A stretch of 64,000 bases of DNA from Mycoplasmatota bacterium (lineage in GTDB: Bacteria; Bacillota_I; Bacilli_A; Haloplasmatales; Haloplasmataceae), in contig CP074573.1 of assembly GCA_018394295.1 (NCBI GenBank), positions 124,001 to 188,000 on the forward strand, given 5' to 3'. Below are positions 12,947 to 36,432 of the stretch, in pieces. A model generated the notes under the pieces. It did not search any database. It had not been told where the DNA came from and was given only the letters and a program-made list of their open reading frames with translations. Every line of letters starts with the position of its first letter. The first letter of the stretch is position 1. The position numbers and the translations under genes were made by a program.

Positions 12947-13300
12947 GGGGATGTTACGGATTCGACGGGGGCATTTGAACTTGATAAGCAGGTCGTGCTT
13001 AACATCACGTTAAACTGTAGAGGTTTAAATAACCGGAAAAAATAATTTACAATTCGCAGCTTAATTAAATAAGCTCGGCTCCATTCGACTATTGCCCATG
13101 TAGTTGTCTAGGGGCTCATTGATAGTGGGCTACGCTAACATCCGCCTCCTTAGGATGTTAGAAGAAGATGAATAAGGATCGCTAGCAAATAGCCTGTCTA
13201 TCGGCAGTTTGTTCGTTAAATTTTAAAGATAGTCTAAACCTGTAGAAAGTCAAGTGTTCGGTGTTTTCGGACGCGGGTTCGACTCCCGCCATCTCCACCA
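12947..13300 (+). ncRNA. ssrA: Transfer-messenger RNA (tmRNA)
   Basis: This is the trans-translation RNA. The 5' end GGGGATGTTACGGATTCGAC and the 3' end GGGTTCGACTCCCGCCATCT plus CCACCA form the alanyl-tRNA-like domain, with encoded CCA. Length is about 354 nt. The tag frame ends at GCAGCTTAA (13056-13064) and reads GKNNLQFAA, preceded by an ACC (Thr) codon. The tag would therefore be about 9-10 residues, ending in Phe-Ala-Ala. The exact resume codon cannot be fixed by eye. It has its own promoter and works with SmpB encoded just upstream. Confidence 0.95.
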
Positions 13301-13354: not shown

Positions 13355-13391
13355 ATGTCTTTGATTTATGATATAATCAAGGACTTTTTTA
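13355..13391 (+). terminator. Terminator after ssrA, member of a repeated family
   Basis: The stem GTC(T)TTGAT / ATCAAGGAC is followed by six T, with TTATGATATA in the loop. Nearly the same element, including the loop sequence, recurs at 58497-58535 and 62072-62104. Confidence 0.75.
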
Positions 13392-13508
13392 TTTGACAAA
13401 AATAGTCAATTTAGAAATACGTCAAAATCAAAATAAAATGAGGAAAATGGACGCGGATATGGTGGAGAGGGGTCCACCAAGTTAAATTAAATATAAAGGA
13501 GTGAAATA

Positions 13509-14642
13509 ATGTCTGAAAGTAATGAAAAAGTTTCTAGTATATCAAATCTTATGCAAGAGCAAGGATTTAATTATCAATTCTTTTATTTCCTATATAAATT
13601 AATGAATAGTAAACGGGGAGAGACTATAAGATACGAAGAAGTAGATGATATATCAATTGTTAGAATAAATAAAATGGAGGTATATCAATTAAAATATCTA
13701 ACTTCGAGTAATATATCTGATTTGTCTGAAGCTTTTTGGAAAACACTTTATAATTGGGGTAGTTTACAAGGAATTAATTTTAGTAATACAACATTTTTTA
13801 TAGTTACAAACGCATTAATAACAAATAAACTAGTAAAATATATTGAAAAATATCAAGAAAACGTGTGTACTTTTTCCGATATAAAACGTAGAATAGAGGA
13901 TTATAAAAATAATACTTCGAATGAGGATATTGAGAAATACATTAGTGATGTAATAGAAAATAAGAATATGAGTTCTATTCTCAAAAATATAAAATTTATT
14001 CAAGATATTAATATAATCGAAAAAATTTATGATAATCTTTATAGATTTCTAATTCCTGAAGAAAAACAAATATTATTTTTAAAAAAACTAATTGGGGAAT
14101 TAAAATTAAGACAATTTAAAGATACAAATGAAAAGAAAAAATTTGAGGTTACATTTGAAGAGTATTTTAAATTTGGTTGTAAATTAGCTGATCGAATAAG
14201 ATCTAATAAATTTGTTGAATCATTTTATGAATGTAATAATATTAAAGATTTTATAAAAAAGTTCTTTATTGTTCAAGCTCAAGATATTGGTGTAGTAAAT
14301 GATGAAGACGACATTATAACACTATCAACAAATTATTTGAATTATATAAATAATATGATAGAAATAATGAAATATAAATTTGCAACAGATAAAGAAATAG
14401 ATGATAGTTTAAAGTTTGTTATACAAAATTGGAAGAGTGTTTTTATGGAATGTAAAAGACTAATAGCTGATGATATATCTAAAGGTAAGAAGTGCTTTAC
14501 AGATACATTAAATAAAAATATAAAAATTGGTAATATAAGTTTAGAGGATATTACTAGTAAGGGATGTTTTTTAAAATTATCTGATGAATTAAGAATAGGT
14601 TGGTTGCCAAAATGGGAGGAGAAATATAAAAATGAGGAGTAA
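13509..14642 (+). CDS. ABC-three-component system effector: Cap4-like dsDNA nuclease domain protein
   Basis: This 377-residue protein is the first gene of a three-gene unit. The N-terminal region (about residues 17-110) matches the Cap4/DUF4297-type nuclease pattern: FNYQFFYFLYKLM, then YEEVDDISIV, then VYQLKY, the restriction-like D...QxK core, then DLSEAFWKTLYNWG. The remainder is probably the helical C-terminal domain typical of ABC-3C effectors. It would cleave DNA when the partner ATPase senses infection. It overlaps the next gene by 11 nt. Family placement is by pattern recognition; the defence role is inferred from the family. Confidence 0.75.
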   Translation: MSESNEKVSSISNLMQEQGFNYQFFYFLYKLMNSKRGETIRYEEVDDISIVRINKMEVYQLKYLTSSNISDLSEAFWKTLYNWGSLQGINFSNTTFFIVTNALITNKLVKYIEKYQENVCTFSDIKRRIEDYKNNTSNEDIEKYISDVIENKNMSSILKNIKFIQDINIIEKIYDNLYRFLIPEEKQILFLKKLIGELKLRQFKDTNEKKKFEVTFEEYFKFGCKLADRIRSNKFVESFYECNNIKDFIKKFFIVQAQDIGVVNDEDDIITLSTNYLNYINNMIEIMKYKFATDKEIDDSLKFVIQNWKSVFMECKRLIADDISKGKKCFTDTLNKNIKIGNISLEDITSKGCFLKLSDELRIGWLPKWEEKYKNEE

Positions 14643-15075
14643 GTATAAAAATTTTAACACAACAATAATTATTTTACTTACTTATTTAATTAAATTTGAA
14701 AAAATCGAAGTATTAAATGTTTATTTTATAGTAGCTTTTTACAGTAATAATACACTTTTAGATGAATTTGAGAAGAAGAAAAAAATTTACAGTAGTCTAG
14801 TAGATTATAGTATTGAATTTCCTGATTATATTGAAATAACCAAAAATAGAATAGATTATTATTATGAATCTATTGCGGAATCATTGTTGTTCTTATCTGA
14901 ATGTTCTTTAATTGATTTAAAAGGTAATCAGATAATATTAAATAAGGATATTTATACAAAATATAATTTAAATAATATTTCTACTAAAAGAATGGAAATT
15001 TGTATTAAACTAACTGGTAACATATTTAAAATAAAGACACAAGAATTATTCTTGCGTACTGGGGTGATATTATGA
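14632..15075 (+). CDS. ABC-three-component system middle component
   Basis: This 147-residue protein sits between the nuclease-like and ATPase genes and overlaps both (11 nt and 4 nt). It is predicted to be soluble and mostly helical, with a winged-helix-like C-terminal part (residues about 80-145). Middle components of ABC-3C systems are small, divergent proteins in this position and are thought to bridge the effector and ATPase. The assignment rests on gene order more than on sequence. Confidence 0.6.
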   Translation: MRSKYKNFNTTIIILLTYLIKFEKIEVLNVYFIVAFYSNNTLLDEFEKKKKIYSSLVDYSIEFPDYIEITKNRIDYYYESIAESLLFLSECSLIDLKGNQIILNKDIYTKYNLNNISTKRMEICIKLTGNIFKIKTQELFLRTGVIL

Positions 15076-16817
15076 AATTTCATATAAAAAAAATAGTGTT
15101 ATGGAAAAAAGATGGAACAATTAAAACCCATAATTTTAAAAATAATAAAATAAATATAATAAAAGGTAGTAGTAATACTGGAAAAAGTAGTTTCTTTAGT
15201 GTATTAGACTATTGTTTTTTGTCATCTGGAAAGGATATACCAAGTGAAATAGATAGACAAGTTAATTGGTATGGTATTGAATTTAAATTAAATGATCAAA
15301 ATTATTTTATTGGTAGGGAAAGCGGTGAAACTAATAAAGCTAGTAACAATGTATATTTTAGTAACTTTCTTCCAAAAAATGTAGATAAGAAAAATTCTAG
15401 TATAAAGAATATTAAAGAAATAATAAATAAAAAATTTAATTTAGATTCAGAAAAACATCGTGCTTATGGTGGCCCAGCAACTGTAAAAAATAGCAAATTA
15501 TCATATAGGCCATTTTTACTTTTTAACACTATATCACAAGAAATAATAAGTAGTAAAGATCAATTTTTTGATAAACTGAATAATAGACAATATTTAGGAA
15601 CTTTCCCTGCAGCAATGGATATAGCCTTGGGAATATATACTTTAGATAAATTAGAATTACTTGTACAGAAAAAAAAATTAGAAGATAAATTAAATAAAAT
15701 AAATAATGATGATGATAATGAAAGTAACAAATATCATAAGTATATTGACAGCCTTTTTAAAGAAGCTTCAGAGTTAGGGGTCAATACATTATCATGTACA
15801 TCTTTAGGTGATCTAAGAGAACAGTTTAATAATAATTTATATACTTCAAAGATATATAATAATGATATGTATAGGCTTAAAGAAAAAGAATTTAAATTAA
15901 TTCAAAAGTTACGGAGTCTTGAAAGTTATAATAATGAACTAAATAAAAGTGAGAGATTATTTGATAAAGAGGAAGAGGAAAATAACGTTATAAAATATTT
16001 TGATAAATATAAACAAACAAGCCTTTTAGCCGAATATTTTATAGAAGCAATTACAGAAGAATTAATGAGATTAAAAAAAGATAAGAAATTAATAACAGAA
16101 ATAAGAATAGATGTTAATGAGAGAATAAAAGTGATAAAAGAAAGTTTGGATAGTGTACAAAAAGATATAAAGAGAATTAGTAATCAAATATCTTTAGAAA
16201 ATAATTATAAGGATTATATAGAGTTATTAGGGAAAATTAAAATAATAGATTTTATTAGTAAAAATGAAAAACAAGATATAGACGAAAATAATATCAAAAA
16301 AATTGAAAAAGAATTAAAAAAGTTAGAAAAAAAATTAGAAAAATATCCAAACAAAGATAGTGTTCTGTTTGATATAAATGAAATTTTAAATGAAAATTTA
16401 GAAAAATTAAAGGTATATATAAAGGGATATGAAAATAAAAACTTAAAAGCTTTCTTTAATATGTCTAAGAAAAAATTAGAATTTAAATTATATGATTATA
16501 AGGAAATCCTTGGTAGTGAATCTAATTTTATGATTGAACACTTACTATTATTTACATCATTACATCAATATGCAAAAGACTATTATGATAAATTTATCTT
16601 ATCATTTTTAGTTATAGATTATTTAAGTAAACCATACAATGTGGAATTACCTGAAGATTTAAAAACATTTAAAGGAGTTTTATCTTATTTATGTATTTTT
16701 TTAAAGAACATAAAAGATTTTCAGTTAATAATAATTGATAAATTAGATTATCAACATTATGTAGATAAAGATAATAAACAGTTAATATATAATTTAAATT
16801 TTGATACATTAGTATAA
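15072..16817 (+). CDS. ABC-three-component system ATPase (DUF3732-like, SMC/RecN type)
   Basis: This 581-residue ATPase has Walker A GSSNTGKSSF (residues 32-41), followed by the family-typical FSVLDYCFLSSGKDIPSEI, a long charged coiled-coil middle (about residues 190-440) and a C-terminal lobe. In that lobe FLVIDYLSKPYN corresponds to the usual Walker B segment of DUF3732 proteins, and FQLIIIDKLDYQHY to the H-loop segment. The Walker B Glu/Gln region reads YLSK rather than the more common QPSQ. Length and domain order indicate a complete protein. It is the sensor/motor of the 13509-16817 operon. Confidence 0.75.
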   Translation: MKFHIKKIVLWKKDGTIKTHNFKNNKINIIKGSSNTGKSSFFSVLDYCFLSSGKDIPSEIDRQVNWYGIEFKLNDQNYFIGRESGETNKASNNVYFSNFLPKNVDKKNSSIKNIKEIINKKFNLDSEKHRAYGGPATVKNSKLSYRPFLLFNTISQEIISSKDQFFDKLNNRQYLGTFPAAMDIALGIYTLDKLELLVQKKKLEDKLNKINNDDDNESNKYHKYIDSLFKEASELGVNTLSCTSLGDLREQFNNNLYTSKIYNNDMYRLKEKEFKLIQKLRSLESYNNELNKSERLFDKEEEENNVIKYFDKYKQTSLLAEYFIEAITEELMRLKKDKKLITEIRIDVNERIKVIKESLDSVQKDIKRISNQISLENNYKDYIELLGKIKIIDFISKNEKQDIDENNIKKIEKELKKLEKKLEKYPNKDSVLFDINEILNENLEKLKVYIKGYENKNLKAFFNMSKKKLEFKLYDYKEILGSESNFMIEHLLLFTSLHQYAKDYYDKFILSFLVIDYLSKPYNVELPEDLKTFKGVLSYLCIFLKNIKDFQLIIIDKLDYQHYVDKDNKQLIYNLNFDTLV

Positions 16818-17066
16818 GATTTTAAAAGAATTAATAGAAAACCTTTATTGAGTAAATAAGAATGAAATATATTATGTTTATAAGTTAAATAAAATTTATC
16901 ATTATTAAGAATAAATGTTAAAAATATTTAATTAATCAATTATTTTTAGCAATATTTTGCAAAAAAATATAGAAAAATAGAATTGAATATTTTATGATTT
17001 AATAAAGGAAAAGGCTTTCTAAAATATAAATAATAATAATCGAATAATATATTTTTGGGGGAATAT

Positions 17067-17648
17067 ATGAAAAAAACGTTAATTATTTTAGTGTTTGGTA
17101 TATCTGGGTCGGGTAAAAGTACGTTAAGAGATTATATTATAAAAAATACAGATGAAATATATAAATTAATAGCTGTAACTGATAGAAGTCCTAGAACTGG
17201 TGAGCAAGATAAAATCGATAAATATTTTTTAAGTGAAATGGATTTTTTTAAAAAAAAGAATCAAGGAGAATTATGTATAATTAATAGACTTTATAATACT
17301 AATTATGCATTTTTTAAAAATGATTTTACCTCAGGAAAAATTTTATTAGGGGAATTACATTATTCGGCTATAGATAGCTTCAAAGCATATCATCAAAATA
17401 CGATCCTCTTATATATTAAAATTAAATCCAAAGAAAAAATTATAGATGCAATAGAACAGCGAGATAAAAATATTGTAAATAATAGTATTCGGATAAAATA
17501 CATAGAAGAAGAAAAAAAAGCTTTATATAAATTAGAAAAACAAGGGATTTTTGATTATAGTTTTGAAAATAATTATGATGAAGAAAGCAAAATAAAATTT
17601 GTTGGGATAATTAAAAAAATTATTAAAGATTATGGGGAGAAATTTTAA
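17067..17648 (+). CDS. P-loop nucleotide kinase (guanylate-kinase-like)
   Basis: This 193-residue protein has Walker A GISGSGKST (residues 11-19) and the segment TDRSPRTGEQD, which resembles the substrate-binding loop of guanylate kinases (TTRxPRxGE). GELHYSAIDSFKAYHQ sits where GMP kinases contain their Y-G/D loop. A lid region rich in Lys and Glu follows. It could phosphorylate a (modified) nucleoside monophosphate. ATG 17067 is behind GGGGG. The frame opens at 17055 with a TTG that lies on the ribosome site. It is the first gene of a four-gene unit, and its stop is directly followed by the next ATG. Confidence 0.7.
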   Translation: MKKTLIILVFGISGSGKSTLRDYIIKNTDEIYKLIAVTDRSPRTGEQDKIDKYFLSEMDFFKKKNQGELCIINRLYNTNYAFFKNDFTSGKILLGELHYSAIDSFKAYHQNTILLYIKIKSKEKIIDAIEQRDKNIVNNSIRIKYIEEEKKALYKLEKQGIFDYSFENNYDEESKIKFVGIIKKIIKDYGEKF

Positions 17649-18587
17649 ATGATTGAAGAGATAATAAAGTTAATAAGTCAAAAAAATATAGATAATAATT
17701 TAATTAAAAAATTAGAAAATTTTGAACAAAAGAAGTTAGTTTATACATCATTCGACGGAGATTTTATGCAATTTCTTATGGACATGATGGAAATTACAAT
17801 GAAAAGAGGTTATATTCCTATTAATCCTGAAGCAACTTTAGGATATTATGTCTCAACTACCACTCATGAAGGAAATAAAATACCTGTAATGATTGATTGC
17901 ATAAAAACTGAATTAATGTGTGATGAAATGTGGATTTTTAACCCGCTTAATAATCATATTCCAGAAGGTGTTTTAGCAGAAATGATGGTTTGGAAAAATG
18001 AAAAAAAAAGTGATATTAATTTAATTACTATTTTTGATTCTGTTGAATTAATTAAAGAAATTAAATTTAACATTTTACATGAAAATGATATTAATCAGAT
18101 CATCAATAAGCATAATAAAGTAGACATAGAATCTATTAAAAATAAATTAATTCTATCAAATCCTGAAAATGGATTATCTCATTCGTATATTGTAGCGAAT
18201 TTTTATAATTTTAAACATATTGATTGGACAAGATTTTATTGTTATAAAAATGGAATTTGTCCAATTTCGCCTCATAATATTTTATCATATTACTTATATA
18301 GAAATATCTATGGTGAAAAGGCAAAAGAGAATTATATTATTGACAGAATTACTTTATTAAATAAAGCAGATAATTTATTATTTTTTACAAATATGAATAA
18401 TTTATATATTGAGATAGAAAATTTAGATATTTATTCTTGTATGGAATTGCTATACTGGTATAAATATAAGGATAAATCAAAAATTAAAATAATAAACTGG
18501 TCTGATGCTAATGTTCCAAAATATAAAAATAGTGATAAATGGGCAATAACTAATACTGAAAAAAAAGAGGTAATCAATTATGTATAA
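17649..18587 (+). CDS. Duplicated nucleoside 2-deoxyribosyltransferase-like protein
   Basis: This 312-residue protein has two related halves. Residues about 30-100 read VYTSFDGDFMQFLMDMMEI, then GYIPINPEATLGYY and CDEMWIFNP. Residues about 178-250 read HSYIVANFYNFKHIDWTRF, then GICPISPHNILSYYLY and ADNLLFFT. Both have the Rossmann-like layout of nucleoside deoxyribosyltransferase or DUF4406-type proteins, which act on the N-glycosidic bond of nucleosides. The catalytic residues cannot be assigned with confidence. It starts the base after the kinase stop and overlaps the glycosylase gene by 8 nt. Not a characterised family, to my knowledge. Confidence 0.55.
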   Translation: MIEEIIKLISQKNIDNNLIKKLENFEQKKLVYTSFDGDFMQFLMDMMEITMKRGYIPINPEATLGYYVSTTTHEGNKIPVMIDCIKTELMCDEMWIFNPLNNHIPEGVLAEMMVWKNEKKSDINLITIFDSVELIKEIKFNILHENDINQIINKHNKVDIESIKNKLILSNPENGLSHSYIVANFYNFKHIDWTRFYCYKNGICPISPHNILSYYLYRNIYGEKAKENYIIDRITLLNKADNLLFFTNMNNLYIEIENLDIYSCMELLYWYKYKDKSKIKIINWSDANVPKYKNSDKWAITNTEKKEVINYV

Positions 18588-19326
18588 TGAAATTTTTAAA
18601 TCCCTTCAAATATATGAAAAAGAAATTGTAAATAATTATAATATTTTTAAAGGTAATTTATTAGAAGATGAGGTAAAAAAATTTTTGATAACTAATCCTA
18701 ATGCATTTCTATTTGGACTCATTTCGGATCAATCAATTAAAGCAGAATTAGCATGGTCATTGCCATTAAGATTAAAAGAAAGAATAGGATATTTCAATAT
18801 AAAAAGAATAGCAAATGAGATTAATGAAGAAGAGATGGAAACTATTATTAAAAAAAAGCCATCATTACATAGATACCCCAAGAATATAGCAAAATATTTA
18901 ATTTATGCTAGCAAAATTTTAGTTTATAAATATGATGGTAATGCAAGTAATATATGGAAAAATACATCAGCCAAAGAACTTATAATGAGGTTACAAGAAT
19001 TTAAAGGTATTAGTCACAAAAAAGCATCATTAGGTTGTTTATTATTAGTAAGAGATTTTAACTTAGACTTGATAGATAAAGAAAATATAAATATAGTTTA
19101 TGATATCCATATACGACGTATCTTTCTTAGAGCAGGATTATGTGAAAATGATAAAATCGAAGATATATATAATGCAGCTAAAAAAATTTATCCTCAGTTT
19201 CCGGGATATTTAACATCTATGTTTTGGGCTATTGGTAGAGATATATGTAGACCGAAAAATCCAGAATGTAATCTTTGTCCTATAGAAAAGCATTGTATGA
19301 AATATACTAATATAAACATAAAGTAA
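18580..19326 (+). CDS. HhH-GPD DNA glycosylase with 4Fe-4S cluster (endonuclease III superfamily)
   Basis: This 248-residue base-excision enzyme has an N-terminal FLFGLISDQSIKAELAWSLP (EndoIII-like Q motif), a helix-hairpin-helix LQEFKGISHKKASLG (residues 138-152) with lysine at 147/148, and the catalytic aspartate in VYDIHIRRIFLRAG (D175). The Fe-S ligands C223-x6-C230-x2-C233-x5-C239 have exactly EndoIII spacing. The lysine plus aspartate pair suggests a bifunctional glycosylase/AP lyase. Lying inside a nucleotide-enzyme operon instead of beside other repair genes, it may act on modified or foreign bases. Confidence 0.82.
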   Translation: MYNEIFKSLQIYEKEIVNNYNIFKGNLLEDEVKKFLITNPNAFLFGLISDQSIKAELAWSLPLRLKERIGYFNIKRIANEINEEEMETIIKKKPSLHRYPKNIAKYLIYASKILVYKYDGNASNIWKNTSAKELIMRLQEFKGISHKKASLGCLLLVRDFNLDLIDKENINIVYDIHIRRIFLRAGLCENDKIEDIYNAAKKIYPQFPGYLTSMFWAIGRDICRPKNPECNLCPIEKHCMKYTNINIK

Positions 19327-19341
19327 GGTGGGAGTTAGAAA

Positions 19342-19992
19342 ATGCAAAATCTAATATATTACAATAATTTTAAAAGAATAATAAAAAGATCATATGAAAT
19401 AAATAATTATTGGAAAAAATATAGAGAAAATAGGCAGTTAACTAAATTCGAAAAAGAGTCAATTGATAGTTTTATTATTAGTTTAAAATCACCAGTAAAA
19501 AAAGTATTAGATCTTGGTTGTGGAACAGGACTACCATATGATGATTATCTTGTTAAAAATGGCTGTTATCTTACAGGAATTGATTTTAGTAAAAAACATA
19601 TCAGTATGGCAAAAAAAAATATCCCCAATGCAAAATTTATATATGATGATTTTTTAAGTTATAAATTTTCTAATAAATTTACTGGAATTCTCTTATTTTA
19701 TTCTTTTTTTCATATTCATAGATCTAATCATAATTATTTGTTGAAAAAAATTTATAATTTATTATTAGATAATGGTATTGTTTTGATGAACGTACGTAGT
19801 GAGGATTCTGGGGATATTAAATATAAAGATAATTTTTGTGGAAAACCTATGTGTTGGAGTCATTTTAATTTCGAAAAATTTCATAGTATGGCTATCTCAT
19901 GTGGGTTTTCTATTAAAGTATTAGGAGACGAAAAAGATTATGGAAGTGATGAAAGTCATATTTGGATAATAATGAAAAAATGTTTAAAATAA
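19342..19992 (+). CDS. Class I SAM-dependent methyltransferase
   Basis: This 216-residue Rossmann methyltransferase has motif I VLDLGCGTGLPYDDYL (residues about 55-70), the acidic end of strand 2 TGIDFSKKHISMAKKN, and FYSFFHIHRSNHNYLLKKI in the motif IV region. The FFHIHR motif resembles small-molecule methyltransferases of the UbiE/TehB type and not DNA methylases, which would show DPPY or PC. It follows the glycosylase by 15 nt with its own GGTGGGAG ribosome site. Substrate unknown; operon context suggests a nucleobase, nucleotide or nucleic acid. Confidence 0.75.
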   Translation: MQNLIYYNNFKRIIKRSYEINNYWKKYRENRQLTKFEKESIDSFIISLKSPVKKVLDLGCGTGLPYDDYLVKNGCYLTGIDFSKKHISMAKKNIPNAKFIYDDFLSYKFSNKFTGILLFYSFFHIHRSNHNYLLKKIYNLLLDNGIVLMNVRSEDSGDIKYKDNFCGKPMCWSHFNFEKFHSMAISCGFSIKVLGDEKDYGSDESHIWIIMKKCLK

Positions 19993-20253
19993 TTTAATAT
20001 TAAAGAGTTAAATTGTTAATTATTTCTTTATTTTTAAACTAATAGATGGATGTGGATACTATCCTATACGTGCTGGACTTTTGTATATGAAAAAAATAGT
20101 CAATTTTATGATTAAAATACACATTAAAAGAAATTATCTGTAAAATCACTAAATCTTATTAAATTTAGTAAGAATATTACCATAATAGTTAAAGAGAGAG
20201 GACAGGTATCACATATATTTTTGTACTTTATCAAAGTGTAAGGAAGTGTTCGT

Positions 20254-24912: not shown

Positions 24913-26091
24913 ATGTCAACTATGATAAAAAGAATAGAAAAATACTCAGAAAATATTGTGGAGGACAAAACTCTCTTTCCTTATGATGTTGAATTTTATA
25001 AAGAATACTTTTTAACTTTTTTAGATAATGAATCACATAATTTTAATAAGGTATTGTTAGTAAATGTAATAGAAAATATTACATGGTATAGACAATCACA
25101 AATAAACTCATTTTTTACTAGAACTATGACTGAAGAAATATTTGATTATGATTTCATACTTGCTTATAAGAACAAAATAAGTAGTAGTTCAAATAATATA
25201 ATATCTAATTTAAGACAACAAGGTATAATTTATGATGAAATATTAGATTTATCTAAAATAAAACACACAGTTAAGAATAAAACTTTAATTATATTAGATG
25301 ACTATGTAGGTAGTGGTAATACTATCATAAATAATGTCTTAATAAATAAATCTTTTCAAAATTGTAAATTTATAATTATTGCTTTTGTGTGGCAGGAATT
25401 AGCAATATCTAACTTAAAGAAATTTCTAAAATCTTATAAACAAAATAATGTTGAAATACATAAAAAAAATGTAATAGTAGAAAAAAATTTTGAACATAAA
25501 GTTAACGATATTAAAACTATTAATTATATTAAGAAAATATGTAATGGACTAATATATTCAAAGGAATATTATGGTTACAACAATACGGGGGCCATGATAT
25601 CTCTAATGGGAATATCACCAAATAACAATATTTCTATGATTTGGAGAGATGATATTATAAAAGATGGTCAAAAATGGATACCTCTTCTTGACAGGGAAAT
25701 TGGACTAAAAATGATAACAAGATATAGAATAGAGGTTTTTAAAAATAATAAAAAGCTATTATATGATTTTTATAAAAAAATTAGTAAAAAACTAGAAATA
25801 ACTTTTGAGGAATATAAAGTAATTTATCTATTTTTTGTTAAAAAAAACATTCAATTCAATGAAATTAAAAAAATTTTAGGCTATGATAATCATAATCAAA
25901 TCAATGAAATTATAGCTAATTTGAAATATAAAAAGATAATTACATTTATTGATGGTTATATAAATATTTTAAACCAATACCTAATAAAAAATATGAAAGA
26001 TTTAACAAATCGAATTTTAGTAGTATTAAAAAAAGAGGGAATAGAGCGGAAGAAAAAAACAGATGTGTTTTTAGCTAATCAATCTAGTTAA
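24913..26091 (+). CDS. Phosphoribosyltransferase-like (PRTase-CE) retron effector
   Basis: This 392-residue protein has the PRPP-binding loop TLIILDDYVGSGNTI (residues 124-138; DD followed by GSGNT) and a later GAMISLMGISPNNNISMIW, typical of the PRTase-like proteins that accompany some retrons. The C-terminal 110 residues look like a winged-helix module (FNEIKKILGYDNHNQINEII). It directly precedes the retron RNA and reverse transcriptase, so it is probably the toxic effector held in check by the RT-msDNA complex. ATG 24913 follows AAAGGATGG. Confidence 0.75.
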   Translation: MSTMIKRIEKYSENIVEDKTLFPYDVEFYKEYFLTFLDNESHNFNKVLLVNVIENITWYRQSQINSFFTRTMTEEIFDYDFILAYKNKISSSSNNIISNLRQQGIIYDEILDLSKIKHTVKNKTLIILDDYVGSGNTIINNVLINKSFQNCKFIIIAFVWQELAISNLKKFLKSYKQNNVEIHKKNVIVEKNFEHKVNDIKTINYIKKICNGLIYSKEYYGYNNTGAMISLMGISPNNNISMIWRDDIIKDGQKWIPLLDREIGLKMITRYRIEVFKNNKKLLYDFYKKISKKLEITFEEYKVIYLFFVKKNIQFNEIKKILGYDNHNQINEIIANLKYKKIITFIDGYINILNQYLIKNMKDLTNRILVVLKKEGIERKKKTDVFLANQSS

Positions 26092-26094
26092 TAA

Positions 26095-26296
26095 GTTTCC
26101 CTTCTAGGAGGGCAAATGAGTCATTTGCATGGTAATTAGGTTTCTAGTAATCATCCGACTTCACAGACTGCGAAGTATACTCGTCTTGAAGTCTAATGTA
26201 TTTGAGTGTGTATAAATACCTTTCGCACAGCTGTGCCAAAGAATATTTATATTTACACACAAACTCTTATAGCAAGGAGTTGGCTAGGAGGGAAAT
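26095..26296 (+). ncRNA. Retron msr-msd RNA
   Basis: This is the non-coding RNA template/primer of the retron, between effector and RT. Ends: a1 GTTTCCCTTCTAG (26095-26107) pairs with a2 CTAGGAGGGAAAT (26284-26296) over 13 positions with two G-U pairs. Inside are hairpins GCAAATG/CATTTGC (26112-26128) and GACTTCA/TGAAGTC (26157-26193). A long stem at 26204-26266 is capped by the palindrome GCACAGCTGTGC (26225-26236) and probably is the msd part. The a2 arm contains the AGGAGGG ribosome site of the RT gene. The branching guanosine cannot be placed with certainty. Confidence 0.8.
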
Positions 26297-26301
26297 TTAT
26301 T

Positions 26302-27366
26302 ATGGAAAATAAAAATTTATATAGGAAAAAAATTGAAAATAGCGACATAAGTTTTAATGAAAAACAAAAATTATTATCTAATTTAGGTAATATTAAAGAT
26401 GATTATCCAATCATTTTAAATGGATACCATATTTCCAATAAAGTTGGTATAAAATGGAATGATTATCTTAAATTATTGAAAAATACTAATAAATATTATC
26501 ATGTATATTATATGGCTAAAAAAAGTGGTGGAAGAAGAAAAATAACTATACCTGATCAAATACTTATGGATATACAATATTTTATTAAAAATAATATTTT
26601 AGAAAATATTAAAATTGATGAAAGTGCATTTGGTTTTAGGAAACAAAAATCTATTTTAGCTAATGCAACCTACCATCGAGAAGGTGAAAAAGTATTAATT
26701 ATGGATATAGAAAATTTCTTTCCCAGTATCCATAAAGGACGAGTCTATTATGTGTTTAATAAAATATGTGGTTATTCAAGAGAAGTGTCTTACGATTTAA
26801 CAAGACTGGTTACTTATAATAATGGATTACCACAGGGTGCTCCGACTAGTCCAATTATTTCAAATATAGTAGCTTATAAATTAGATTTAAGATTGAAAGG
26901 TTTGTCTTATGTCATAGGTATAAAATACTCTAGATATGCTGATGATTTAACATTTTCTGGTGCTGAAAATAAAATTAATGATAAATTATTGTATACTGTA
27001 TCTAACATTATTGAAGATGAAGGCTTTAAACTTAACCTGAAGAAAATTAGATTCTATGGAAAGAATAGCACAAAGATTATTAATGGGTTAGTAATAAATA
27101 ATGGATATGTCACTATTCAAAAAAGATACATAGATAAAATAAAGCAAGAATTATACTATATTAGAAAATTTGGACTTGAATCACACCTTAATTATGTTGG
27201 GTTTAAAAATAAACATTATGCTGAACATCTTAAAGGGAAAATACTGTATGTTTATAGTATAGATAAAGAAAAAGGAAAACAATTATTTAGTCTTTATAAT
27301 GAACTAAATATTGAAAATAAACCTAATCTTGTTAGAGGGGGATTTGATGAGATGCCCGTATTGTAA
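26302..27366 (+). CDS. Retron-type reverse transcriptase
   Basis: This RNA-directed DNA polymerase makes branched msDNA from the adjacent RNA. It has 354 residues from ATG 26302, 9 nt behind AGGAGGG; the longer frame from 26206 runs through the ncRNA and is rejected. Retron signatures are NATYH (121-125, the NAxxH motif), a first catalytic Asp in LIMDIENFFPSIH (D135), LPQGAPTSPIISN (177-189) and SRYADDLTFSG (210-220). The usual VTG motif reads NGLVINN (261-267). There is no maturase or endonuclease domain, so this is not a group II intron RT. The end overlaps the next gene by 20 nt. Confidence 0.9.
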   Translation: MENKNLYRKKIENSDISFNEKQKLLSNLGNIKDDYPIILNGYHISNKVGIKWNDYLKLLKNTNKYYHVYYMAKKSGGRRKITIPDQILMDIQYFIKNNILENIKIDESAFGFRKQKSILANATYHREGEKVLIMDIENFFPSIHKGRVYYVFNKICGYSREVSYDLTRLVTYNNGLPQGAPTSPIISNIVAYKLDLRLKGLSYVIGIKYSRYADDLTFSGAENKINDKLLYTVSNIIEDEGFKLNLKKIRFYGKNSTKIINGLVINNGYVTIQKRYIDKIKQELYYIRKFGLESHLNYVGFKNKHYAEHLKGKILYVYSIDKEKGKQLFSLYNELNIENKPNLVRGGFDEMPVL

Positions 27367-29700: not shown

Positions 29701-31074
29701 GTGATATTAACAATTACCTATGAAAAACAAAACGCAAGTGATTTGGGTTATCTTTTACATAAGAACCCGTATCGACCACAATCGGTTGATATTAGTAAAG
29801 GAAGAGCCTATATATTTTATCCTGAAATAAGTGATACATCGTGTACTATGTCAATGTTGTTAGACATTAACTCAGTGAATTTAGTTCGTAAATCAAAAAA
29901 CAGTATTTTTGATTATGTAAATGACAGACCTTATACATCTTCGTCATTTTTAAGTGTCGCAATTGCTAAAGTTTTTAGTACTGCATTATCAGGAATATGT
30001 CAAAAGCGACCTGAACTAGTGGATGAAGAAGTACCGATACAAGCATCATTAACCATGGTACCTTGTAAAGGTGGAAAGAAAATAATTTATGATTTTTTCG
30101 CATCAGAACCTTTAAAGTACCAAGTGGAGGTTGAAGAATTTTTATTAGATGAAAATCATCCACATTGGGGTAAAGGGAATTACTACAACATCACAATTAA
30201 AAAGAAAACCACTATTAAAGAAGTTCTAAGACATATTTATATATTAGTTCCATCACTTGATATAGACAAGCATTATTTTGTGAGTGAGAATGAAATTGAT
30301 AAGTTAGAACGATATGGAGAACCATGGATTCAGAGTCATCCTTTTAAAGAAGAAATTATATCAAGATATATGATTAAAATGAAGAGTTTATATAATCAGG
30401 CAGTAAAAAGATTGTTTGAAGACAGTGATGAAAAAGAAGAGGAACAAGATATTGAGAAATTAAATAAAAAATTAAAACTAAATAAACTAAGAATGAATGC
30501 AGTAGTAGAAGCAATTTTAAACACTAATGCAAGTAAAATTATCGATTTAGGTTGTGGTGAAGGTAAATTAATTGGAAAAATAATTAATAATAATCGTATA
30601 AACAAAATTACGGGTGTAGATATATCCTATTCTCAATTAGAACGAGCTAAACAAAGATTAAAATTAGATGAATTAGCACCTAACAGAAGAGATAAGGTGA
30701 AACTTATTCAAGGATCATTAACTTATATTGATGAACGATTTCTAGGTTATGACCTAGCAACTTTAATCGAAGTGATTGAACATATAGATTATGATCGTTT
30801 ATGGATGTTAGAAAAGAATATATTTGAAAATGCAAGACCAAAATTCGTTATCGTTACAACACCAAATAAAGAGTATAACGAATATTATGGCATGAAAGAA
30901 TCTAATTTAAGGCATCCTGATCACAGATTTGAATGGAGTAGAAATGAATTTGAAACTTGGTGTCTAAGGATGGCCAAAGAATATAGATATGATGTCACGT
31001 TTAAAGAAATTGGTGAAACCATTGATCAAATTGGTGCTCCAACACAAATGGGGGTGTTCGCACTATGCAAATAA
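29701..31074 (+). CDS. hen1: RNA 3'-terminal ribose 2'-O-methyltransferase Hen1
   Basis: Bacterial Hen1 methylates the 2'-OH at the 3' end of a cleaved RNA before Pnkp reseals it, which makes the repaired RNA resistant to the same ribotoxin. It has 457 residues. The N-terminal half is the bacterial-specific domain that activates Pnkp ligase. The C-terminal methyltransferase starts about residue 275 with IIDLGCGEGKLIGKI, has the metal-binding EVIEHID and ends with RHPDHRFEWSRNEFETW. The start is GTG 29701 behind GAGGGAAG. It overlaps pnkp by 10 nt. Confidence 0.93.
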   Translation: MILTITYEKQNASDLGYLLHKNPYRPQSVDISKGRAYIFYPEISDTSCTMSMLLDINSVNLVRKSKNSIFDYVNDRPYTSSSFLSVAIAKVFSTALSGICQKRPELVDEEVPIQASLTMVPCKGGKKIIYDFFASEPLKYQVEVEEFLLDENHPHWGKGNYYNITIKKKTTIKEVLRHIYILVPSLDIDKHYFVSENEIDKLERYGEPWIQSHPFKEEIISRYMIKMKSLYNQAVKRLFEDSDEKEEEQDIEKLNKKLKLNKLRMNAVVEAILNTNASKIIDLGCGEGKLIGKIINNNRINKITGVDISYSQLERAKQRLKLDELAPNRRDKVKLIQGSLTYIDERFLGYDLATLIEVIEHIDYDRLWMLEKNIFENARPKFVIVTTPNKEYNEYYGMKESNLRHPDHRFEWSRNEFETWCLRMAKEYRYDVTFKEIGETIDQIGAPTQMGVFALCK

Positions 31075-33650
31075 AAGTACCTGATTTATCGTTAGTTGTG
31101 TTAATAGGTGCTTCGTCTTCAGGAAAGACTACGTTCTCAAAAGCACATTTTAATAGTAGTGAAGTTGTCTCATCTGATTATTGTAGAATGATTTTATCAG
31201 ATGATGAAAATAATCAATCAGTTAATCAAGAAGCATTTGATTTATTACATACGATTGTAGATAAGCGTTTGAAATTAGGACGATTAACAGTTGTTGATGC
31301 TACTAATATTCAAAAATCAGCTAGAAAAAAACTCATTTCGATTGCTAAGAATAATGACTGTTTTCCGGTAGCGATTGTTTTAAATTTACCCGTAGCTCTT
31401 TTAAAAGAAAGAAATAGAGAACGAGAAGATCGCCAGATTGGTCAGTATGTTATAAAGCACCATGCTGATGAGGTTAGAAGAAGTATTCGTCATTTAAAAC
31501 AAGAGGGGTTCCGGTTTATCTATGTTATTAAATCGTTAGAAGAATTAGAATTAGTGACAATTGAGCGGAAGAAGTCATGGAATAATAAAAAAGATGAAAA
31601 AGGTCCTTTTGATATTATAGGAGATGTACATGGTTGCTATGACGAACTGATTGAATTATTGACTCGACTAAACTATAAAGTTGAAACTGATTATACCAAA
31701 AAATATGGTGTAAAAATCACGGCACCGGAAAATAGAAGGTTAATTTTCCTTGGTGATTTAAATGACCGAGGACCGAAATCTGTAGAAACATTTAAATTAG
31801 TCATGACATGTGTTGAAGAAAAAATCGCCTTTTTCATTCCAGGTAATCATGAAATAAAACTCTTAAGGAAATTAAGTGGTAAAAATGTTTCTATTAATCA
31901 TGGCCTTGATAGTACATTAAAACAATTAAAAAAAGAAACAGATGAATTTAAAGAGAAGCTACAAATATTTATTGATCAATCGGTAAGTCACTATGTACTA
32001 GATGATGGTAAATTAGTCGTAGCACATGCTGGTTTACCAGAACATTATCATGGACGAACATCGGGTAGAGTTCGAAGTTTTTCTATATTCGGTGATGTTA
32101 CTGGAGAAAAGGATGAAGAGGGACTGCCAATTAGAAATGATTGGACCAGCGATTATCGTGGAGATGCTGTCGTAGTCTATGGACATGTCCCTCAAAAAAA
32201 GGTTTATCAATCCAATAATACCTTTTGTATTGATACCGGCTGTGTTTTTGGTGGAGAATTAACAGCCTTACGATATCCTGAATTAGAATGTGTAAGTGTT
32301 TTAGCTAATGACATTTACTGTGATGATAATGTTAATTTTAAGAATGATCAAGCTATTCGAATAGATAAGAATTTAATTTATGCTAAAGATGTTCTGGGTA
32401 ATAAGGTGATTTATACTCGTTTATTAAATCAGATAAAGTTAAAAGAAGAAAACAACATAGCAGCCTTTGAAACAATGAGTCGTTTTGCTATTAATCCTAA
32501 TTGGCTTGTTTATTTACCTCCAACAATGTCACCATCTGAAACCTCAAAAGATGATGCATACCTTGAGTATCCAACTGAAGCCTTTAATTATTACTTTAGT
32601 AATGGGATAGAAGAAATCGTATGTGAAGAAAAACATATGGGATCAAGAGCTATTATTGTTCTTTGTAAAAATCAAGCAACTGCGAAAGAAAAGTTTAATG
32701 CGATGAATGGAGAAATTGGTATTTGTTATACGCGAACAGGACGAAATTTCTTCAATGACCGCAGTCTTGAACAAGATTTCTTAAACAAAGTTAAAGGTAT
32801 ATTAGACAAGACAAATTTTTGGGATGATTTCAATACAGACTGGGTAGTATTGGATAATGAATTAATGCCATGGTCCATAAAGGCACAACATCTTATACAT
32901 GATCAATATGCTCCTATAGGATTAGCAGGGAAAGTATCTTTGAAAAAGGCGAATGAATTATTAGAACAAGTCAAGGATGTACAAAATCAATATATTATGA
33001 ATAACAAAAATGGAGGAGCTAGTTCTTTTGATATTAATCAATTGATAGAAAAAACAAAAGAGCGATATACAAAAATAAATAACTACATTAAAGCCTATCA
33101 AAATTATTGTTGGGATGTTGTAAGTATTGATGACTTGAAATTAGCTCCATTTCACATATTAGCAACTGAAGGTTTTGTTCATGCTGATAAAAATCATATC
33201 TGGCATATGAAAACAATTGAACAGTATTTTGATACTAAAGATTCCATTATTAAAAGAACTAATTATATTATAGTAAAAAATAACGAAGCAAGTATTCAAA
33301 AAGGAATCGATTGGTGGTTAGACCTTACTAAACAAGGTGGAGAAGGAATGGTCGTTAAACCAAAAGAGTTTATTAATTATGGCAAGAAAGGACCTCTCCA
33401 ACCAGCCATTAAATGTAGAGGTAAAGAATATTTAAGAATAATTTATGGACCAGAATATGATTTCAAAGAAAACCTAGATACACTTAAAAAGCGTGGACTG
33501 AGTAAAAAGAGATCAATGGCAATTAAAGAATTCTCATTAGGATTAGAAGCATTAAAACGTTTTGTTCAAGGAGAACCATTATATCGAATACATGAGTGTG
33601 TATTTGGTGTTTTATCGATGGAAAGTGATGCTGTTGATCCAAGATTATAA
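31065..33650 (+). CDS. pnkp: Polynucleotide kinase-phosphatase-ligase Pnkp
   Basis: This is an RNA repair enzyme with three modules in 861 residues. The 5' kinase is at residues 1-170, with Walker A GASSSGKTTFS at 15-25. The metallophosphatase is at about 180-420, with DIIGDVHGCYDEL, FLGDLNDRGPKS and IPGNHEIKL. The adenylyltransferase/ligase is at about 470-861, with the nucleotidyl-lysine motif CEEKHMGSRAIIVL. It heals and seals tRNA or other RNA ends cut by ribotoxins together with Hen1, with which its gene overlaps. Length and modules are standard. The operon is complete. Confidence 0.93.
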   Translation: MQIKVPDLSLVVLIGASSSGKTTFSKAHFNSSEVVSSDYCRMILSDDENNQSVNQEAFDLLHTIVDKRLKLGRLTVVDATNIQKSARKKLISIAKNNDCFPVAIVLNLPVALLKERNREREDRQIGQYVIKHHADEVRRSIRHLKQEGFRFIYVIKSLEELELVTIERKKSWNNKKDEKGPFDIIGDVHGCYDELIELLTRLNYKVETDYTKKYGVKITAPENRRLIFLGDLNDRGPKSVETFKLVMTCVEEKIAFFIPGNHEIKLLRKLSGKNVSINHGLDSTLKQLKKETDEFKEKLQIFIDQSVSHYVLDDGKLVVAHAGLPEHYHGRTSGRVRSFSIFGDVTGEKDEEGLPIRNDWTSDYRGDAVVVYGHVPQKKVYQSNNTFCIDTGCVFGGELTALRYPELECVSVLANDIYCDDNVNFKNDQAIRIDKNLIYAKDVLGNKVIYTRLLNQIKLKEENNIAAFETMSRFAINPNWLVYLPPTMSPSETSKDDAYLEYPTEAFNYYFSNGIEEIVCEEKHMGSRAIIVLCKNQATAKEKFNAMNGEIGICYTRTGRNFFNDRSLEQDFLNKVKGILDKTNFWDDFNTDWVVLDNELMPWSIKAQHLIHDQYAPIGLAGKVSLKKANELLEQVKDVQNQYIMNNKNGGASSFDINQLIEKTKERYTKINNYIKAYQNYCWDVVSIDDLKLAPFHILATEGFVHADKNHIWHMKTIEQYFDTKDSIIKRTNYIIVKNNEASIQKGIDWWLDLTKQGGEGMVVKPKEFINYGKKGPLQPAIKCRGKEYLRIIYGPEYDFKENLDTLKKRGLSKKRSMAIKEFSLGLEALKRFVQGEPLYRIHECVFGVLSMESDAVDPRL

Positions 33651-35202: not shown

Positions 35203-36432
35203 TTAATATTTTAAATTTTCTAATGCTTCTTTAGCAACATTTTGTTCAGCTTCTTTTTTTCTTTTACCCGAACCACTCCCCATTAATTCACCGTCAATAT
35301 ATACATTAATTTCAAATGTCTTATTATGATCTGGACCATATTCTTTTAGGACTCTATATTCTATATATTTTTGTGGGAACTTTTCTTGCAACCAATTTTT
35401 ATAGTAATAATTTACTTCTTCATTTGTATTAAATAGGCTATCAAACATATCTCTAGATATATTTTGTACTTTTTGTTTATTAGTAATATTATTAATTGCA
35501 TCTCTAGCAGCTTTTCTTTCTGCTAGAATTCTTCTTTTACCAGAACCACTACCCATCTTTTTATTGTCAACATATACATCAACATAAAAAGTTTTATTAT
35601 GGTCTAAACCTTCTTCATTTATAAGCTTATATTCTATTTCTTTATCGTAAATCATAAAATTTAATTCCTGTTTAGAATTATCAATTAAGTTTGCTTTATC
35701 AAAAATACTTGTCCTTGAAGTTTTATCATTATCTTTTTCATAAAGTGTTTTTTGATTCTGAATAACATGTGTGTTTTTTTGCAATGCATCTTTCGCAGCA
35801 TTTTGTTCAGCATCTTTTTTTCTTTTACCCGAACCACTCCCAATTTTTACATCATTAATATAAATATCAACATAGAATGTTTTATCATGATCGAATCCAC
35901 TTTCTTTTACAAGTATATATTCTATAGGACTTTGAGGGTATTTTTCTTGAAGTTCATTCTTATAACTATATTCATTATTACTAGCATAGGGTAATAACTT
36001 ATTAACTAAAAAATTAAATACGTAATCGAAGCCTGAATCTAAGTATATAGCGCCAATTAAGGCTTCAAATGCATCCCCTAATATTGAATGATTATTAGGG
36101 TTTACACCATTTCCAACAAGTATATATTTATTTATTTCTAGTAATATAGCATAATTATAATTAGCGTTTTTATCAACATAATTTTCTTTTAATTTTGTCA
36201 TATCTCCTTCAGTTGAAGTTTCATCATTGTTATATAAATAAGTTCTAACAACATTTTCTAATACAGAATCGCCTAAAAATTCTAATCGTTCATTACTTTC
36301 ATTAATATAATTTTCATACGAATAAGATGAATGAGTAAATGCTGTTTTTAATAAAGATTTGTTTTTAAATGATAGATTATGTTTTTTACAAAACTCATTA
36401 AGTAATTCTTCATAATTAAATATGTCTTTCAT
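35203..36432 (-). CDS. Ribonuclease III with three dsRNA-binding domains
   Basis: This is a dsRNA-specific endonuclease. It has 409 residues, against about 230 in ordinary bacterial RNase III. The catalytic domain (residues 8-150) carries NERLEFLGDSVL (48-59, E51 and D55) and GDAFEALIGAIYLD (119-132, D120 and E123), so it should be active. Three dsRBDs follow at about 157-219, 256-317 and 343-408, each with HxKTF, GSGSGKR and a closing KxAEQxAAKxAL-like helix. The middle one has lost most of its first helix. Repeat 1 and 3 DNA is nearly identical around the GSGSGKRKK motif. The promoter region upstream holds an inverted repeat. Probably a defence-associated paralogue, not the housekeeping rnc. 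Confidence 0.85.
   Translation of the reverse strand: MKDIFNYEELLNEFCKKHNLSFKNKSLLKTAFTHSSYSYENYINESNERLEFLGDSVLENVVRTYLYNNDETSTEGDMTKLKENYVDKNANYNYAILLEINKYILVGNGVNPNNHSILGDAFEALIGAIYLDSGFDYVFNFLVNKLLPYASNNEYSYKNELQEKYPQSPIEYILVKESGFDHDKTFYVDIYINDVKIGSGSGKRKKDAEQNAAKDALQKNTHVIQNQKTLYEKDNDKTSRTSIFDKANLIDNSKQELNFMIYDKEIEYKLINEEGLDHNKTFYVDVYVDNKKMGSGSGKRRILAERKAARDAINNITNKQKVQNISRDMFDSLFNTNEEVNYYYKNWLQEKFPQKYIEYRVLKEYGPDHNKTFEINVYIDGELMGSGSGKRKKEAEQNVAKEALENLKY

Follow-up and report, generated by a model that had tools for sequence, protein, structure and literature searches.

Which function could hold together a kinase, a duplicated protein resembling nucleoside deoxyribosyltransferases (NDTs), a DNA glycosylase and a methyltransferase whose genes are packed end to end within a bacterial defence island? 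The question is raised by a four-gene operon in a window of 64,000 nucleotides (the whole stretch of DNA that was analysed, to which the positions below refer unless another contig is named). With less than even confidence, we favour the view that the operon is an accessory cassette, probably directed against phages, whose core activity is the excision of a modified base. In the following sections, we describe the operon, its setting, its four products and their relatives, and weigh this proposal against other explanations.

Operon Layout and Genomic Setting

The operon consists of four intact open reading frames on the + strand (17067-17648, 17649-18587, 18580-19326 and 19342-19992), whose junctions are, in order, a 0-nt gap, an 8-nt overlap and a 15-nt gap, and about 250 bp separate it from the upstream ABC-3C genes as well as from the next downstream ORF. 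The coordinates, strand and tight packing given by a sequence-only reading of this DNA all hold, and the overlap together with the zero gap implies co-translation of the genes. The start codon of the first gene is ATG 17067, which is preceded by GGGGGA, an alternative TTG at 17055 being less likely. With regard to coding evidence, the longest ORF in Markov-random DNA of the same composition, generated with neighbour frequencies kept, had a mean of 66 aa and a maximum of 123 aa over 300 trials, versus 312 aa for the longest frame of the operon. A promoter scan returned no more matches than shuffled sequence. PADLOC 2.0, run on the four proteins, found no catalogued system as one unit, its matches within the set being a partial mad2 (methyltransferase domain) and a P-loop mad8 (E 0.013), and nothing else; a known PADLOC defence system was therefore rejected, since no model covers the four proteins.

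The defence island in which the operon had been placed from the letters is confirmed by its neighbours, namely, Lamassu/ABC-3C, PDC-M36A, retron-type and Pnkp/Hen1 genes. The island starts just behind the tmRNA gene (12947-13300). The ABC-3C/Lamassu-like set comprises three ORFs (13509-16817, + strand) with LmuB, DUF3732 and weak CTD7 matches, and includes an LmuB-like ATPase (LmuB model, E 1e-60). A repeat search revealed a 32-nt direct repeat, the left copy of which (13381-13412, +) lies roughly 80 nt behind the tmRNA gene and the right copy (20075-20106, +) just after the operon. The copies, 91% identical and the only two in the whole 3.29-Mb genome, bracket the ABC-3C genes and the four-gene operon, and may be the borders of a single inserted cassette or a duplicated leader. 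In a genome of the same genus, in which an empty site was sought, the contig ends shortly after the tmRNA gene. Further defence genes follow downstream, encoding PDC-M36A, a PRTase with a retron-type reverse transcriptase, and Pnkp/Hen1.

An HhH Fe-S Glycosylase Distinct from Endonuclease III

The third gene (18580-19326, +) codes for a predicted HhH-GPD Fe-S DNA glycosylase/lyase, assigned to a TIGR03252-related clade from PF00730, alignments and a tree. The protein scores 39.1 bits against PF00730 (HhH-GPD; cut-off 26.2) and harbours the catalytic residue D175, the HhH lysine K147 typical of lyases, and a cluster loop, C223-x6-C230-x2-C233-x5-C239, with the spacing of endonuclease III; its PF10576 score is below the cut-off of that family. 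Lys, Asp and the four Cys are invariant in three close relatives, which are about 30% identical. An earlier description as a complete endonuclease III-type glycosylase was thus borne out for D175 and the C-x6-C-x2-C-x5-C loop, but not for membership of the Nth family. Indeed, the score against the Nth family model is 31.5 bits versus a cut-off of 211.7, and a maximum-likelihood tree sets the glycosylase, its relatives and TIGR03252 apart from Nth/MutY with 100/100 support, which leads us to reject a plain endonuclease III/Nth orthologue. The branch order inside the glycosylase/TIGR03252 group is unsupported.

Compared with Nth/MutY, the operon enzyme shares the HhH-GPD domain, the catalytic Asp, the HhH Lys (of Nth) and the four-Cys Fe-S loop, but it scores far below the family cut-offs, occupies a separate branch, and carries a DQ/DR motif in place of the SAQ/LQQ loop. 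The uncharacterised TIGR03252 family, on the same side of the tree, matches its N-terminal half (E 3e-23; 82.3 bits, below the cut-off of 136.5), whereas the canonical members sampled have a Gln at the K147 position and lack both D175 and the Fe-S cysteine loop. The clade therefore joins a first half of the TIGR03252 kind to an active site and an Fe-S loop resembling those of Nth. In a Foldseek search with an AlphaFold model (pLDDT 66), the first 12 matches were all HhH glycosylases, with weak E-values; PUGT 8z2n was also among the weak fold matches, far below the glycosylases (E 3.2).

The three relatives occur in diverse neighbourhoods. Within a few kilobases of the first (L005, G211) are genes for a methyltransferase and a helicase akin to type IIG restriction enzymes, and for another helicase. 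In the second (L004, G075), the glycosylase is joined to a DUF4357 domain, which also occurs in candidate defence models (PDC-S14 and PDC-S57), and the gene overlaps an HTH gene upstream. The third is present on a viral contig with a terminase gene (L033, 5878-6657, on the strand opposite to its neighbours), where its neighbours are ParB-like and DpdA-like genes and, farther out, QueC-like and transporter-like ones; the DpdA-like and QueC-like neighbours place it among 7-deazaguanine modification genes. This phage-borne relative could act in competition between phages. No kinase, NDT-like or methyltransferase partner was found in these three neighbourhoods. Profile A3 of the glycosylase clade detected no new members when run on viral contigs and on two additional families (the last of these searches was run without a positive control).

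A Guanylate-Kinase-Like Protein with Altered Base Contacts

Guanine is held in guanylate kinase by S34, Y50, E69 and D100 (yeast numbering). The first gene (17067-17648, +) encodes a guanylate-kinase-like P-loop kinase of 193 aa in which such contacts are lost, as judged from PF00625 (E 2.6e-9), TIGR03263 (63 bits versus a cut-off of 160) and an alignment with the own gmk of the host; the genome carries this normal gmk as well, and the operon kinase is a paralogue sharing 26% identity in the alignment. The P-loop G-x-SGSGKST, the LID-side motif R-x-P-R-x-G-E and the acceptor-phosphate residues R40, R43 and Y76 are retained, which, together with PF00625, supports at the level of family chemistry the initial guanylate-kinase-like P-loop call. 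In contrast, the guanine-contact Ser, Tyr, Glu and Glu of the host enzyme (the last one being Asp or Glu in Gmk) are, respectively, Ala, Lys, missing and His. Phosphate contacts kept and guanine contacts lost form the pattern expected for a kinase of another dNMP, and judging from these residues the protein probably phosphorylates a substrate other than GMP. A working guanylate kinase is unlikely, given the lost base contacts and the normal gmk elsewhere in the genome. Relatives in phages and plasmids were limited to short or weak matches, whose gene contexts were uninformative.

A Duplicated, Putative NDT-Like Protein and a Methyltransferase

The second gene (17649-18587, +) codes for a protein of 312 aa, considered NDT-like by motif, for which the sequence-only reading had proposed two NDT-like halves. 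The duplication is confirmed: the half-versus-half alignment scores 65 against a shuffle mean of 34, and only 2 of 2000 shuffles reached as high a score. Each half harbours a G-x-x-P-I-x-P motif, a pair of Asp at a distance of nine residues, and a Glu with a Trp close behind it. The catalytic pattern of the NDT superfamily is Tyr, Asp or Asn, and Glu (PMC12884076), and candidate triads can be placed by position and in register in the first (Y32/D83/E111) and second (Y180/D232/E266) halves, the triad Tyr falling in different alignment columns. The NDT homology itself comes down to these motifs and to the sole profile match, DUF7768 (E 0.006, below cut-off), there being no NDT family match, so that the original assignment of the four proteins to families holds for three of them and is weaker than claimed for this one.

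Comparison with the PDB yielded no sequence match, and a single-sequence AlphaFold model (pLDDT 36) is uninformative for the fold. Very shallow alignments of both halves, compared by hhalign with solved NDTs, gave nothing; the NDT query matched PDB 1f8x over its full length. We regard the protein as putatively NDT-like, on the strength of a motif argument. No relatives were found in 395 genomes of the class, or in phages, plasmids, viral contigs and genome contigs, the pattern scans of contigs being much less sensitive than HMMER and tblastn. The likeness to the NDT superfamily, including DNPH1 and the phage enzyme DmtZ, would lie in the candidate Tyr-Asp/Asn-Glu pattern and, for DmtZ, in a location within a nucleotide-modification cluster that is comparable with the operon (PMC12884076). 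The operon protein, whose NDT fold is putative, differs by its two fused halves and its lack of a significant profile match.

The fourth gene (19342-19992, +) encodes a class I SAM-dependent methyltransferase of 216 aa, and its earlier designation as a small-molecule-type enzyme stands (PF13649, E 3e-13). Two relatives (L056 and L057) occur in unrelated chromosomal contexts, one of them overlapping an ogt-like gene, without the operon partners. The methyltransferase has no obvious role in a base-excision model.

Occurrence of the Four-Gene Set

No second four-gene set was found in the genomes and collections searched. These searches were narrow: the genome search comprised 1,375 draws, many of which were repeats; all the genomes belonged to the phylum of the operon's host, and the listed ones to its class. 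The other collections were covered by pattern scans of limited sensitivity. Co-occurrence of the four families, which had been suggested as a check of their joint function, has one partial parallel: a Rhizobium plasmid carries a dTMP kinase gene with a TIGR03252-type HhH gene immediately behind it. Two cases of a kinase gene adjoining an HhH gene are hence seen, the kinases being unrelated; this hints at a link but is insufficient to prove one. It had also been argued that homologues occurring independently would speak against a joint function, and this is in part what we observe, as the three glycosylase relatives and the two methyltransferase relatives all stand without partners. In other respects, the Rhizobium cluster (L003, 2218-8465) encodes a MazG-like protein, two radical SAM proteins, a TPR protein, an unknown protein, the dTMP kinase and the TIGR03252-type HhH protein, and represents an uncharacterised nucleotide-related cluster.

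Proposed Function and Alternative Explanations

Glycosylases have been reported as anti-phage effectors, namely, Brig1 (PMC11078745) and Brig3 (PMC13160076), and the helper encoded in the Brig3 operon converts a hypermodified base into a substrate of the glycosylase (PMC13160076). Within the NDT family, DmtZ remakes a modified nucleotide (PMC12884076). Our favoured model combines the base-excision precedent of Brig with the nucleotide-remaking precedent of DmtZ, and we hold it with rather low confidence. The Fe-S HhH glycosylase/lyase, through K147 and D175, would remove a non-canonical base from DNA, and the resulting abasic sites or nicks would block replication, as with Brig1 and Brig3, which have a different fold. 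The NDT-like protein would target this base in the free nucleotide, by cleaving or exchanging the base of the dNMP, and the altered NMP kinase and the methyltransferase would process the nucleotide in question or shield that of the host. From the genes, we infer the substrate, the cooperation of the four proteins, the anti-phage effect, and all roles of the NDT-like protein and the methyltransferase.

The operon resembles Brig1 and Brig3-BapA in that a glycosylase lies within a defence island (PMC11078745, PMC13160076), and Brig3-BapA in that the glycosylase is encoded in an operon, which for Brig3 includes a helper enzyme (PMC13160076). However, the Brig proteins have the uracil-DNA-glycosylase fold, whereas the operon enzyme is an HhH-GPD protein with an Fe-S cluster motif, accompanied by three nucleotide or methyl-transfer partners, and its defence role is a prediction. 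The cassette is supported by the tight packing, the defence neighbours, the bracketing repeats and the clade-invariant Lys, Asp and Cys, as well as by glycosylase relatives near restriction-modification genes, in a phage with deazaguanine genes and in a DUF4357 fusion, by the HhH gene next to a dTMP kinase in Rhizobium, and by the Brig precedent. Against it stand glycosylase relatives without partners, an NDT homology that is not established, a methyltransferase of no obvious role, the different fold of the Brig enzymes and, as the strongest counter-argument, a four-gene set found once in the narrow searches described above. A more elaborate version, a two-level defence in which the new-branch glycosylase acts on DNA while the NDT-like protein, the re-purposed kinase and the methyltransferase destroy or remake the matching nucleotide, is doubtful. 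If it acts in defence, this small HhH Fe-S clade would represent a second, independent origin of base-excision defence, the published examples considered here (Brig1/Brig3) having the uracil-DNA-glycosylase fold, and would link DNA base excision to nucleotide-pool control.

The single occurrence of the set, within the narrow searches described above, and the solitary glycosylase and methyltransferase relatives would also be expected if the four were separate accessory genes gathered in a hotspot of horizontal acquisition, the glycosylase alone being a defence or repair enzyme. Islands do collect unrelated genes, and we regard this explanation as possible, if somewhat unlikely. It is opposed by the overlap and zero gap, which imply co-translation, by the kinase-HhH adjacency that recurs in Rhizobium, and by the fact that three of the four families work on nucleotides or nucleobases.

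The altered kinase lends itself to another reading, that of modified-nucleotide synthesis with editing, which we consider unlikely. Base exchange by the NDT-like protein would give an unusual dNMP, which the kinase would phosphorylate; the methyltransferase would finish the base, and the glycosylase would remove misplaced copies, the product marking self DNA or poisoning phage replication. The kept phosphate contacts and lost guanine contacts of the kinase, and the candidate triads in both halves of the 312-residue protein, are consistent with such a pathway, for which DmtZ provides a precedent by making an unusual dNMP through base exchange (PMC12884076). Nevertheless, inspection of the ORFs revealed no dedicated polymerase or base-synthesis gene beside the operon, the NDT homology is unproven, and the modified DNA of the host would itself be at risk from the glycosylase.

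Improbable, in our view, is repair coupled to pool sanitation with no phage role, in which the NDT-like enzyme would destroy a damaged dNMP and the glycosylase would remove it from DNA. DNPH1 and SMUG1 are reported to give such a pattern in animals, and the active site of the glycosylase is of the Nth type; yet the operon lies in a defence island of accessory genes and is absent from the other sampled genomes of the family, and relatives of its glycosylase are found in a phage as well as close to restriction-modification genes. Finally, DNA hypermodification, with the HhH protein as a phage-type base-modifying transferase working with the kinase, is very improbable: some phage hypermodification pathways do have a P-loop kinase and an HhH-fold protein at their core and PUGT is among the weak fold matches, but K147, D175 and the four Fe-S Cys are glycosylase/lyase features, the kinase is of the GMK type, no Pfam match to such transferases was obtained, and a transferase fits poorly with fold matches led by glycosylases.

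Other Genes of the Island

With regard to the downstream part of the island, in the region 24913-27366 a PRTase-type gene precedes one for an St85-like retron reverse transcriptase, which scores just below the curated cut-off. An RNA-repair pair, Hen1 and Pnkp, is encoded at 29701-33650, both proteins being above their family cut-offs. On the opposite strand, 35203-36432 (-) codes for a 409-aa protein of the RNase III type, whose C-terminal end contains a repeat of about 190 nt in three tandem copies, apparently corresponding to repeated dsRNA-binding domains.
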